64,000 nt of DNA, from assembly GCA_016125555.1 (NCBI GenBank), contig WGLN01000015.1, forward strand, positions 44,125 through 108,124. The letters run 5' to 3'. Shown in pieces: positions 23,524-29,138 of the stretch (the stretch's first letter is position 1; each line of letters starts with the position of its first letter). Source of the stretch: Porphyrobacter sp. GTDB lineage: Bacteria > Pseudomonadota > Alphaproteobacteria > Sphingomonadales > Sphingomonadaceae. A model generated the notes under the pieces. It worked only from the letters and a program-made list of their open reading frames with translations, searched no databases and had not been told where the DNA came from. The position numbers were made by a program, and so were the translations under genes.

Positions 23524-23593
23524 GGCGCCTGCGCGGTAGCGGGAGGGGCGCGACTTGGCCAGTGCGGGCATCGCGGATCGAGCAATCCCAACC

Positions 23594-23612
23594 CTTGGGA
23601 ATATTTCCCAAG
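23594..23612. promoter_or_regulatory. Perfect 19-bp palindrome, candidate upstream activator site
   Basis: CTTGGGAA-TAT-TTCCCAAG, centred about 85 bp upstream of the -24 element at 23687. Confidence 0.5.
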
Positions 23613-23685
23613 CTTTCGGGATGGTGAACGAAGCGTAGCCAAGGCGAAAGTTGAAAAACGGCGGAAAACCGCGCTTTTTCGAGTT

Positions 23686-23701
23686 TGGCACGCCTCCTGC
23701 A
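23686..23701 (+). promoter_or_regulatory. Candidate sigma-54 (-24/-12) promoter
   Basis: TGGCACGCCTCCTGCA: GG-N10-GC spacing, close to the TGGCAC-N5-TTGCA consensus. Confidence 0.65.
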
Positions 23702-23764: not shown

Positions 23765-23878
23765 ATGTTCGCCATCGACGCTTCGAACCGCCTCTTCGCC
23801 GCCGCCTTCTCGGTCGTCCTTTCGGCCGCGTTCCTGGCCTACGCGATCCTTCCCGCCAGCCCCGGCCTCGTTGCCTGA
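23765..23878 (+). CDS. 37-aa single-TM peptide, tandem copy 1
   Basis: MFAIDASNRLFAAAFSVVLSAAFLAYAILPASPGLVA; AAGGAG RBS 9 bp upstream; homologous to the next ORF. Confidence 0.75.
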   Translation: MFAIDASNRLFAAAFSVVLSAAFLAYAILPASPGLVA

Positions 23879-23920
23879 TCCGGCACCTGCCAACCTCGTT
23901 TCACAAAGGACCAATGACCC

Positions 23921-24034
23921 ATGTTCGGCTCTGACCAATCCGCCCGCCTCGCTTCCGCCGCCTTCGCGGTGGTCCTGACGATCGCGAGCTTCGCCTATGC
24001 GATCCTGCCCGCAAGCCTCGGCCTCGCGGCGTAA
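23921..24034 (+). CDS. 37-aa single-TM peptide, tandem copy 2
   Basis: MFGSDQSARLASAAFAVVLTIASFAYAILPASLGLAA; 24 of 37 residues identical to copy 1 with no gaps. Confidence 0.75.
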   Translation: MFGSDQSARLASAAFAVVLTIASFAYAILPASLGLAA

Positions 24035-24066
24035 GCCGCCGGCCCGACAACAGGAGTGACCTGCAA

Positions 24067-24282
24067 ATGAACAACGTGACACGCAATTCCGGCGGCAAGC
24101 CGCCCCGCACAGGCTTCCGCCTCGACAAGACCCACGCCAAGGTCTTCGGCGTCTGCGCCGGGATTGCCGACTACACGGGCTTTGATGCAATGTTGGTGCG
24201 GATCGGCTTCGTGGTCGGCGCGATCGCCAGCTTCGGCACGGCGGCGCTGATCTACCTCGCGATCGCGTTGATCGCCGATTGA
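24067..24282 (+). CDS. PspC domain protein
   Basis: FRLDKTHAKVFGVCAGIADYTGFDAMLVRIGFVVGAIASFGTAALIYLAIALI matches the PspC domain pattern. Confidence 0.92.
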   Translation: MNNVTRNSGGKPPRTGFRLDKTHAKVFGVCAGIADYTGFDAMLVRIGFVVGAIASFGTAALIYLAIALIAD

Positions 24283-24345
24283 GTGCAGCGCCAGACAAGC
24301 GGTTCCCGGTTTATCGGGCCGCTGCACCTGATTGAACGAACCGGG

Positions 24346-24374
24346 AAGGGGCCTCATCGGCCCCTTTCTTTTTC
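24346..24374 (+). terminator. Rho-independent terminator after pspC-like gene
   Basis: AAGGGGCC-tcatc-GGCCCCTT followed by tctttttc. Confidence 0.88.
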
Positions 24375-25795: not shown

Positions 25796-26470
25796 CTAGA
25801 CCTCGATCAGCCGGTCGGGCAGCTCGTTCTCGTCATCCGCACCGCGCGGGAAATGTTCGGCAAGGACATGGCCGACATCGGCGATGCCCACTGCCAGCCC
25901 CTCGGCGACGCGGCCCTTCCCGATGTGGGCAAGCATGTCCCCCATCGCCTCCCCCCACACTTCGGGCGCGACCTTGGCGGCGATGGTCTCGTCGGCGACG
26001 ATCTCGGCGCGGTGTTCGCGCATCGAGAGGTAGATCAGCACGCCGGTGCGCCCGGTGGTGCGCCGCTCTGCCCCGACCTTGAACTGGCGCACCGCCTGGT
26101 CGTGGACGCGCGCGGTCTTTACCGGTGCGGGGATGAGGAGGAACTTGAGCGGTTGCCACTGCTGCACCAGCATCACCGCCGCGAACTTGAGAAGTCCGAG
26201 CACGACGACCATGCTGGCAATCTCGCCGGTGGTCCATTGGTGGCCCCACCCGCCCAGCAGCGCATCCCATGTCTCGAGGAAGGGAAGCGGGACGGCGGCG
26301 AAGACGCTCATCGCGGTGAAGGCCGCCGCGCTCGCCCACAGCAGCGCGACATCGGTGTAGCCGTCCGAACGGTCGGCAAGAACGGTCACGATCTCGCCCG
26401 AGGTGGCGCTTTCCGCGGCGGTCACCGCTTCGGCGACGCGCCTGCGGCCTTCATCGTCAAGCCAAGCCAT
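25796..26470 (-). CDS. TPM domain membrane protein
   Basis: TSGEIVTVLADRSDGYTD, two TM stretches, TGVLIYLSMREHRAEIVADETIAAKV. Confidence 0.85.
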   Translation of the reverse strand: MAWLDDEGRRRVAEAVTAAESATSGEIVTVLADRSDGYTDVALLWASAAAFTAMSVFAAVPLPFLETWDALLGGWGHQWTTGEIASMVVVLGLLKFAAVMLVQQWQPLKFLLIPAPVKTARVHDQAVRQFKVGAERRTTGRTGVLIYLSMREHRAEIVADETIAAKVAPEVWGEAMGDMLAHIGKGRVAEGLAVGIADVGHVLAEHFPRGADDENELPDRLIEV

Positions 26471-26473
26471 GAT

Positions 26474-26600
26474 CTACCATCCCCCCGAGGCGCCGCCGCC
26501 GCCCGAGCTGCCGCCGCCGAAGCCGCCGAAGCCGCCCCCGCCGCCGCCGAAGCCCCCGCCGCCGCCGAAGCCGCCCCCGAACCCGCCGCCGCGATGGCCG
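26474..26600 (-). repeat. Low-complexity Gly/Phe-Gly coding repeat
   Basis: Repeated ccgccgccgaag-type triplets encoding GGFGGGFGGGGGFGGGGGGFGG. Confidence 0.8.
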
Positions 26601-27364
26601 CGATCCGACAGGGCGCCGCGCGCGATCGCGCTGCCGACTTCCCACAGGATCACGTCGCGCGCCGTGTCGCCGAGGCCGCGGCTGCCCCAGGGGCCGCTGC
26701 CCCGCGAACGATACCGTCGCCGGCCGCGGCCGCGCAGCAGCGGCAGGACGAAGAAGAAGAACAGCACCACCAGCCAGATCAGCATGCCGAACGGAAAGCC
26801 GCCGTCGCTGCGGCTCTTCTGCGCCTCGGCGGCCTGCGCGGCTTCCTCGATGGCGATGGCGTCTTCCGGGCTCTTGGCAAGGTGCGCGAGGATCGCGTCG
26901 ACCCCGGCGGTCACCCCGCCATCGAAATCGCCCTGCTTGAAGCGCGGCGCAATCACGTCGTTGATGACGCGCCCGGCCATGATCCCGCCGAAATAGCCGT
27001 GGAGGCCATAGCCGACCTCGATCCGCATCTTGCGCTCGTTGGGCGCGATCAGCAGCAGCAGGCCGGCATCGCGCTTGGCCCCGCCGATGCCCCACTTGTC
27101 GGTGAAGAGGGTGGTCGCGTAGCTCTCGATGCTGGCCCTGCCGAGGCTCGGCACGGTGGCGACGATGATCGCGCGGCCGGTCTCCTTGTTGTAGGCGCGC
27201 AAGGTGGCATCGAGGTCAGCCTCGGTCGCGGGCGAGAGAATGTTCGCCCCGTCATAGACCGGCCCGTCGGGGCGCGGGGGATAGTCCTGCGCCTGCGCGG
27301 TTGCGGAAAAGACGAGCAGCAGTGCGGCCAACCAGAACGGGAGCAAGGCGCGTAACCGGCTCAT
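26474..27364 (-). CDS. TPM domain protein, YgcG family, Gly-rich C-terminus
   Basis: ETGRAIIVATVPSLGRASIESYATTLFTDKWGIGGAKRDAGLLLLIAPNERKMRIEVGYGLHGY; C-terminal GGGFGGGGGG...SGGW. Confidence 0.92.
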   Translation of the reverse strand: MSRLRALLPFWLAALLLVFSATAQAQDYPPRPDGPVYDGANILSPATEADLDATLRAYNKETGRAIIVATVPSLGRASIESYATTLFTDKWGIGGAKRDAGLLLLIAPNERKMRIEVGYGLHGYFGGIMAGRVINDVIAPRFKQGDFDGGVTAGVDAILAHLAKSPEDAIAIEEAAQAAEAQKSRSDGGFPFGMLIWLVVLFFFFVLPLLRGRGRRRYRSRGSGPWGSRGLGDTARDVILWEVGSAIARGALSDRGHRGGGFGGGFGGGGGFGGGGGGFGGFGGGSSGGGGASGGW

Positions 27365-27894
27365 GCGGCCTCCTTCATGATCTCGACGCAGAACGGGCTG
27401 ACCGGACCCGGCGTGACCTTGGCGGTTTCGATGCGGGTCATCAGCGCCGCGACCGCCTGCGCGGTCCCCCCGTCGAAATCGCCCGCCGCGAACCGCGGCA
27501 GCAAGTCGTCGTCGAGGATCTGGCGCGCCGCGTCATTCGTCACCACGGTTTCCAGACCGCAACCGACCTCGATACGCGCCTGCCTTTCGGCAGGGGCGAT
27601 CAGCACGAGCACGCCGCGTTGGGTCTTGGCCGAGCCGATGCCCCATTGGTTATACATCCGCTTGGCGATGATCTCGATGCTTTCGTTCTTCAGTTCCGGC
27701 ATGGTTGCGATCACGATCGCGGTTTCCTTCTCGTCCCAGTAGCGCCGCAGCTTCTTGTCCAGCGCCTGTTCTGCGGCGGGCGAGATGATGTCGGCCTCGT
27801 CGACCACCGGCTCGCTCGGACGTTCCGGCCCGGCCTCCGCCGCGCAGGCCGAAGCCAGCAGCGTGAGGCCGAGAAGCGCGGATCGCCCGATCAC
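27361..27894 (-). CDS. TPM domain protein
   Basis: KETAIVIATMPELKNESIEIIAKRMYNQWGIGSAKTQRGVLVLIAPAERQARIEVGCGLE; overlaps the next gene by 4 nt. Confidence 0.9.
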   Translation of the reverse strand: MIGRSALLGLTLLASACAAEAGPERPSEPVVDEADIISPAAEQALDKKLRRYWDEKETAIVIATMPELKNESIEIIAKRMYNQWGIGSAKTQRGVLVLIAPAERQARIEVGCGLETVVTNDAARQILDDDLLPRFAAGDFDGGTAQAVAALMTRIETAKVTPGPVSPFCVEIMKEAA

Positions 27895-27895
27895 C

Positions 27896-28525
27896 TCAGT
27901 TCGCGGCCGCGGGCGTGGCGCTGCCGGTGATGGCGCTCATGTCCACCTTGGGGTTGGCCTTCGCCGCCTCGGCCGCCTCGAAATATTCGAGCGGCTTGGC
28001 GCCGTGGATCACGTTCGCCCCGATGCTCGAGGGGAAGGTGCGAATCTCGGTGTTGTAATCCCGCGCGAGGTCGTTGTAGCGCACCCGCTCGGTGTTGATC
28101 TGGTTGTTGGCCTCGTCGATCGCCACCATCAGGTCGGCAAAGCGCGGCTGGCTGGCGAGCTGCGGGTAGTTCTCCACCACGGTGCGCAGCTGGCCCAATG
28201 CCTGCGTCAGCTGGTTCTGCGCCTGGTTGAACTTCTGGAACTCCTCGGGGTTCGAGAGGTCGTCGGTGGTGATGTTGATCGAGGTGGCGCGGGCGCGGGC
28301 ATCGATCACGCCTTGCAGGATGTCCTTCTCCGAAATCGCGGCGGCCTGCACCACGGAAACGAGGTTGGGGATCTTGTCGGAACGGTTCTGCAGCGCGCTT
28401 TCGACATTGCCCCACTGGGCCTTGGCGGCCTCTTCCTTGGTGGGCACCGAGTTGATCCCGCAGGCGGCAAGCGCGAGCGCGGCGACGGCGGCGAGCGCGC
28501 CGCGCAGCATGGTGGTGAACGTCAT
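27896..28525 (-). CDS. lemA: LemA family protein
   Basis: AQWGNVESALQNRSDKIPNLVSVVQ; ERVRYNDLARDYNTEIRTFPSSIGA. Confidence 0.94.
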   Translation of the reverse strand: MTFTTMLRGALAAVAALALAACGINSVPTKEEAAKAQWGNVESALQNRSDKIPNLVSVVQAAAISEKDILQGVIDARARATSINITTDDLSNPEEFQKFNQAQNQLTQALGQLRTVVENYPQLASQPRFADLMVAIDEANNQINTERVRYNDLARDYNTEIRTFPSSIGANVIHGAKPLEYFEAAEAAKANPKVDMSAITGSATPAAAN

Positions 28526-28700
28526 TGATCGATCCCTCCTCAAGGCGCGCGGTCCGGCGGGGCCGGAGCGGCAGGTTCCTGTATTGCCGATATAGCACAC
28601 CGCTCCCCCGGTTCAAGCGGTGGAAGGGGCGGCGCCTGCCGCTTGGCAGGCCGCGTCGGGAGTGCCAGAAGGGCGCAATCAGCGGACAAAGGGGATTGCC

Positions 28701-29138
28701 ATGCTGTCGGAATTCAAGGCCTTCATCGCCAAGGGCAACGTGATGCAGCTGGCGGTCGCGGTGATCATCGGGGCGGCCTTCGGGAAGATCGTCACCTCGC
28801 TCACCGATGACGTGATCATGCCGCTGGTGGGCGCGATCTTCGGCGGCGCGGATTTCTCGTCCTACTTCATCCTGCTCTCGGCGCCCGAGGGCTACGAGGG
28901 GGCGATGAACGACTACGCCGCCCTGAAAGAGGCGGGGGCCGCCATGATCGGCTACGGCGCCTTCATCACGGCGATCATCAATTTCCTGATCCTCGCCTTC
29001 ATCATCTTCCTGCTGGTCCGCTATGCCAACAAGGTCACCGCGCAGTTCGAGAAGCAGGAGGAAGAGGCCGCGCCCGCCCCGGTAGGGCCGACCGAGACCG
29101 AACTGCTCACCGAGATCCGCGACCTGCTCAAGAAATAG
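28701..29138 (+). CDS. mscL: Large-conductance mechanosensitive channel
   Basis: [46 protein letters not shown]. Confidence 0.97.

Follow-up and report, generated by a model that had tools for sequence, protein, structure and literature searches.

Organization of the locus

The window analysed in this study, a stretch of 64 kb, corresponds to G000:C11:44125-108124 in a 3.07-Mb genome, for which Erythrobacter and allied genera are the nearest relatives with a name; the host family is Sphingomonadaceae, according to the GTDB lineage of the source. The initial annotation had described two 37-aa ORFs, a 71-aa PspC-domain gene and a terminator at this locus, and all of these were found in our analysis (Table 1). 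AGGAG-like ribosome-binding sites precede all three ORFs, and the hairpin downstream of the short pspC has a folding energy of -22.4 kcal/mol (z -4.6). A simple terminator scan made no call at this hairpin, probably because the T tract is partly absorbed into its stem. No structured RNA family was matched in an Rfam search of the locus. The locus is, however, larger than originally described, with an enhancer and a sigma-54 promoter added upstream of the genes. We refer to the arrangement of enhancer, sigma-54 promoter, peptide genes and short pspC as a satellite operon or mini-operon. The region 3' of the operon (25796-29138 of the window) appears by eye to contain an MscL-like channel gene as well as TPM-domain and LemA-like ORFs.

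Table 1. Features of the satellite operon, in window positions
Feature	Position	Strand	Basis
PspF-type enhancer dyad 1, core CCCAACCCTTGGGAA at 23587-23601	23585-23608	-	Matrix score 18.5, top of the 64-kb window
PspF-type enhancer dyad 2, CCCAAGCTTTCGGG	23598-23621	+	Matrix score 11.8, third in the window
Conserved element AAAAnGGCGGAAttCCGCCgTTTTTC between enhancer and promoter	23654-23680	+	Position-specific consensus, 69 loci
Sigma-54 promoter (-24/-12), TGGCACGCCTCCTGCA	23686-23701	+	Sole perfect match in the window
Peptide 1 (37 aa)	23765-23878	+	ORF; one transmembrane helix, predicted N-in/C-out
Peptide 2 (37 aa), tandem paralogue of peptide 1	23921-24034	+	ORF
Short PspC (71 aa), PspC domain without C-terminal region	24067-24282	+	Pfam PspC; TIGR02978 partial
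Intrinsic terminator hairpin, T-rich tail	24343-24374	+	Folding energy

Coding evidence for the peptides

Peptides 1 and 2 are identical at 24 of 37 residues (65%) and have the block AYAILPAS in common. Neither matched any family in Pfam, NCBIfam or PHROGs, including the PspB, PspD and PspG models of the first two, and no relative was found among solved structures. The absence of a PHROGs match also led us to reject a phage origin.

That the peptides are real genes had been proposed from the sequence of this locus, together with dN/dS as a way of checking it, and the comparison with relatives bears this out. In an Erythrobacter metagenome-assembled genome (MAG) and a second MAG (L114 and L115), both peptides keep their frame and their length of 37 codons without gaps. 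Pairwise dN/dS values among the three loci are 0.18-0.41 for peptide 1, 0.26-0.38 for peptide 2 and 0.11-0.33 for pspC; single estimates from such short sequences are noisy, and all nine comparisons agree. These values indicate that the peptides are under protein-level constraint, much like pspC. The arrangement is also recurrent. By an automatic rule, 1-3 one-helix ORFs lie between the promoter and pspC in 68 of the 70 loci where a short PspC gene is distal to the psp operon, and the promoter-to-pspC distance peaks at approximately 200, 350 and 505 bp, corresponding to one, two and three peptides. The stop codon of the last peptide overlaps the pspC start in 52 of the 68 loci. A reading of the peptides as chance ORFs was rejected on the basis of both the dN/dS values and this recurrence, and we consider it nearly certain from these comparisons that the peptides and the short pspC are real coding genes.

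Peptide sequences diverge strongly from genus to genus, and a specific binding surface is therefore not evident. Other properties recur. Among 98 satellite peptides, 104 Lys/Arg residues were counted in the N-terminal flank and 3 in the C-terminal tail. Under the positive-inside rule, this asymmetry places the N-terminus in the cytoplasm, so the predicted topology is N-in/C-out, with a short hydrophobic C-terminal tail that would lie outside. The final residue is Ala in 80 of the 98 peptides and Val, Ile or Leu in the rest; the penultimate residue is usually V, I, L, M or F, and Gly occupies position -4 in 62.

Sigma-54 promoter and PspF-type enhancer

The perfect sigma-54 promoter match at this locus is one of 10 in the genome; the other sites include those of glnK, flagellar genes and the full psp operon. 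The predicted transcription start is at approximately 23712. This promoter is kept in all 70 distal short-PspC loci, 69 of which were identified by a script with a threshold of at least 14 of 16 points (reverse strands of the same stretches scored 13 or less) and one of which (L067) was recovered once its start codon had been corrected.

Enhancers were sought with a 24-bp matrix trained solely on the region that separates pspF from the psp operon, taken from 20 genomes. The matrix gave a score of 14.7 in the enhancer region of the Escherichia coli pspA promoter, a known PspF target. In the 64-kb window, the three top sites all lie at 23578-23621 (18.5, 13.9 and 11.8), and the next site scores 7.0. 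The two dyads in Table 1 overlap, and the centre of dyad 2 is 76 bp 5' of the -24 box, which is the commonest enhancer position in the host family. In 66 of 69 mini-operons, the matrix score was higher than the 99th percentile of shuffles, in most cases at -76 or -89. This test covered both strands of the real sequences but one strand of the shuffles, which preserve base content only; the window-wide and genome-wide tests are free of this weakness. Genome-wide, there are exactly two copies of the core CCCAANNNTTGGSAA, one in the pspF-pspA gap and one in the satellite operon, and a reversed control gave none. The matrix scan found no enhancer at the glnK and flagellar sigma-54 promoters of the genome.

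Both presumptive regulators are encoded in the genome, pspF at G000:C8:50144-51142 and rpoN at G000:C4:186673-188118. The host PspF shows 49% identity to E. coli PspF, in an alignment reaching through the C-terminal HTH. Taken with the control region, these genes make it very probable that the satellite operon is switched on by PspF and sigma-54; PspF would bind at the dyads, and the operon would be induced by stress.

The conserved element between enhancer and promoter is weaker in psp operon promoters when judged by the consensus derived from the 69 loci. In mini-operons, the same interval contains a conserved near-palindrome, GGCGGAATTCCGCC, with a T-tract, and GCATC is conserved near the transcript start. 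Elsewhere in the genome, a candidate third PspF target at G000:C15:125660 was rejected because its enhancer score was -1.0. This sigma-54-like site (L012, 125660-125674) is followed after approximately 100 nt by a terminator-like hairpin and has no clear gene; it may represent a small RNA.

Distribution in the host family

Within the host family, 70 genomes representing 47 genera have the layout of enhancer, sigma-54 promoter, 1-3 one-helix peptides and short PspC, at loci that are unlinked. Among 151 genomes of this family, PspF scored above the curated cut-off in 140 and rpoN was present in 150. Nine genomes of seven genera that are at least 90% complete lack PspF; all nine have rpoN and none has a PspC match. 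Only one further genome lacks a PspC match, and it is 66% complete. The mini-operon is thus missing in every near-complete genome without PspF, which fits the behaviour of a PspF target.

Elsewhere in the order, most of the top PspC matches are genes of the full-length type, and the order sample yielded no peptide match beyond the host family. Scores near those of the short PspC were reached by no genome beyond the host family in the class sample. One other family of the order (L135-L138) has a second short PspC gene directly after the full-length pspC inside the psp operon, with no peptides. It is possible that this gene represents the ancestor of the satellite pspC.

Short PspC and the main psp operon

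The short PspC passes the Pfam PspC model (PF04024) with 56.3 bits against a cut-off of 25. It fails the PspC equivalog model TIGR02978 (48.5 bits, cut-off 104), matching model positions 6-59 of 121 only, whereas the PspC of the main operon passes it with 122.9 bits over positions 2-121. In Yersinia, the C-terminal region of PspC captures PspA (PMC5596341). Given this role, and because the match stops at position 59, the short PspC appears to end after the membrane domain and to lack the PspA-binding C-terminal part, and with it, apparently, the regulatory arm. An AlphaFold model of the short PspC contains three helices (28-37, 41-56 and 58-69), with a mean pLDDT of 68 and a pTM of 0.40, values too weak for interpretation.

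The initial annotation had also placed the locus in envelope-stress physiology, and the PspF-type enhancer and sigma-54 promoter that it has in common with the psp operon agree with this. The accompanying idea of a module without PspA and PspB did not hold: pspF-pspA-pspB-pspC is present in the same genome on a different contig, with the same type of enhancer and promoter. An independent, PspA-free stress module was therefore rejected.

The main psp operon has small proteins of its own. In 17 of 21 genomes examined, including the host, a one-helix leader peptide of 48-66 aa is located between the sigma-54 promoter and pspA. The host leader peptide lies at L003:4323-4508 (on contig G000:C8) and reads MIDRNTAQSSFW...VEIA; counterparts are present at L095-L106 and L109-L112. 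These leader peptides did not match Pfam or NCBIfam. Leader and satellite peptides are alike in their position after the promoter, their single helix and their hydrophobic C-terminus. Homology between the two groups was not established by profile comparison, which yielded an hhalign probability of 19%; one borderline match (E 7e-4) fell on a psp operon leader in G074. Downstream of pspC in the psp operon (L001:1889-2876), three further small proteins of 103, 120 and 106 aa are encoded; the 103-aa protein is weakly PspB-like, and both it and the 120-aa protein give weak matches to the C-terminal portion of the PspC model.

In two relatives, a further locus (L127, from the same genus, and L128) consists of two tandem peptides behind a sigma-54 promoter with no pspC; the enhancers at -76 score 18.8 and 18.0, respectively. 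They qualify the link between peptides and pspC that had been proposed from the present locus: pspC follows 1-3 peptides in 68 of the 70 loci, and as judged from these sequences the linkage is common, not obligatory. The peptide-only operons suggest that peptide function does not depend on a linked pspC and that the peptides need not form a fixed complex with PspC.

Proposed role and alternative explanations

We propose that the locus is a satellite operon of the Psp response which supplies membrane effectors without extra PspA-titrating feedback, and we assign this explanation as a whole a probability of roughly 0.6. Membrane stress would release PspF from PspA; PspF would then bind both upstream dyads and drive sigma-54 RNA polymerase at 23686-23701. 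The resulting transcript would yield two single-pass inner-membrane peptides and a short PspC with the membrane domain only. These small proteins would insert into the inner membrane, where the peptides would probably sit next to the short PspC or together with it, and would help to keep the membrane sealed, so that effector capacity could grow without an added PspA-titrating regulator. The genes, the protein-level selection on them, the PspF/sigma-54 control region, the truncation of PspC and the recurrence of the layout are strongly supported by sequence evidence, which also supports the dependence of its presence on PspF. Association of the peptides with PspC, protection of the membrane and the lack of feedback on PspA are what we infer from this pattern, and a role as stress-induced membrane effectors is put forward tentatively, at slightly under even odds. 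In E. coli, YohP both dissipates the membrane potential and triggers the Psp response (PMC12719787); its case indicates that small hydrophobic peptides may also harm membranes, which counts against an effector role.

The strongest rival to the effector arm, in our view still rather unlikely, is a feedback arm in which the peptides tune the PspB-PspC sensor: bound to the full-length PspC of the main operon or to the short PspC, they would determine the threshold of the response or its shut-off. Peptides with a single helix frequently act on larger membrane proteins, PspF control of the peptides would suit feedback, and the PspC domain is common to the short and full-length proteins. However, the C-terminal region tied to PspA binding is missing from the short PspC, and the peptide-only loci and the sequence drift of the peptides speak against a tight, specific docking surface. 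The frequent overlap of the last peptide stop with the pspC start (52 of 68 loci) could mean instead that the peptides serve mainly as upstream ORFs for translational coupling to pspC, with their amino-acid sequence of little weight. A purely translational role of this kind is very unlikely, in view of the peptide dN/dS of 0.18-0.41, the tandem duplication and the operons in which peptides occur without pspC; moreover, the helix, the charge asymmetry and the C-terminal residues (Ala in 80 of 98) are kept even in copies that do not overlap pspC.

Growth arrest deserves mention as well: the peptides might lower membrane potential or rigidify the membrane on stress, with the adjoining PspC counteracting or confining them. 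We regard this as quite unlikely. The small size, hydrophobicity and tandem copies of the peptides, the adjacency of pspC and the YohP precedent are in its favour, but the operon shows no antitoxin-like partner and no known RNA family, the genes are widely retained on chromosomes, and the controlling system, Psp, is known to preserve membrane potential. A separate and decidedly improbable reading would unite the psp leader, the peptide-pspC satellite and the stand-alone pairs as three settings of one family-wide PspF-controlled micropeptide class, whose conserved hydrophobic C-terminus, G-x-[VILMF]-A, would lie outside the membrane and be recognised by a periplasmic partner, for example a PDZ-type protease; the peptides would then be an output or reporter of membrane damage, not passive stabilisers.

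Comparison with known systems

Compared with canonical pspF-pspABC, the satellite operon has the same PspC domain, the same predicted dependence on PspF and a sigma-54 promoter, and enhancer dyads at equal spacing; it differs in lacking PspA and PspB, in the truncation of PspC past the membrane domain and in that the peptides come first. Very small size, a single pass and a link to stress are features that the satellite peptides have in common with the stress-induced membrane peptides of E. coli, YohP among them. However, YohP production induces Psp, whereas the satellite peptides are predicted PspF targets. PspC neighbourhoods free of PspA, with PspC domains outside psp operons and in several copies per genome, have been described by Ravi et al. 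2024 (PMC11237479) and in a 2022 phyletic survey (PMC9239133). Term searches of these two papers found no mention of the peptides or of PspF-controlled satellite pspC operons, and no description of either was found in the open-access literature searched, so far as its main journal articles are concerned. The arrangement is therefore provisionally regarded as novel.

This alphaproteobacterial family seems to have a second PspF output that combines micropeptides with a PspC devoid of the PspA-binding part. It offers a natural experiment in which the protective role of the PspC domain is set apart from its regulatory role, and it provides, for testing, dozens of short peptides whose inducing system is defined. 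The locus also illustrates that a control region can place small proteins without a Pfam or NCBIfam match in a regulon.

The closest known system in logic is pspG of E. coli and Yersinia, an unlinked target of PspF whose product is a small inner-membrane effector (PMC9239133, PMC2763126, PMC3709507) and which is described as the sole known unlinked PspF target in E. coli (PMC9239133). Both are unlinked units with their own PspF enhancer and sigma-54 promoter and with small inner-membrane products, PspF binding at the satellite operon being predicted. The proteins differ: the satellite operon encodes tandem one-helix peptides and a PspC-domain protein, none of which contains the PspG domain (Pfam), and it is confined to the host family among the samples searched.
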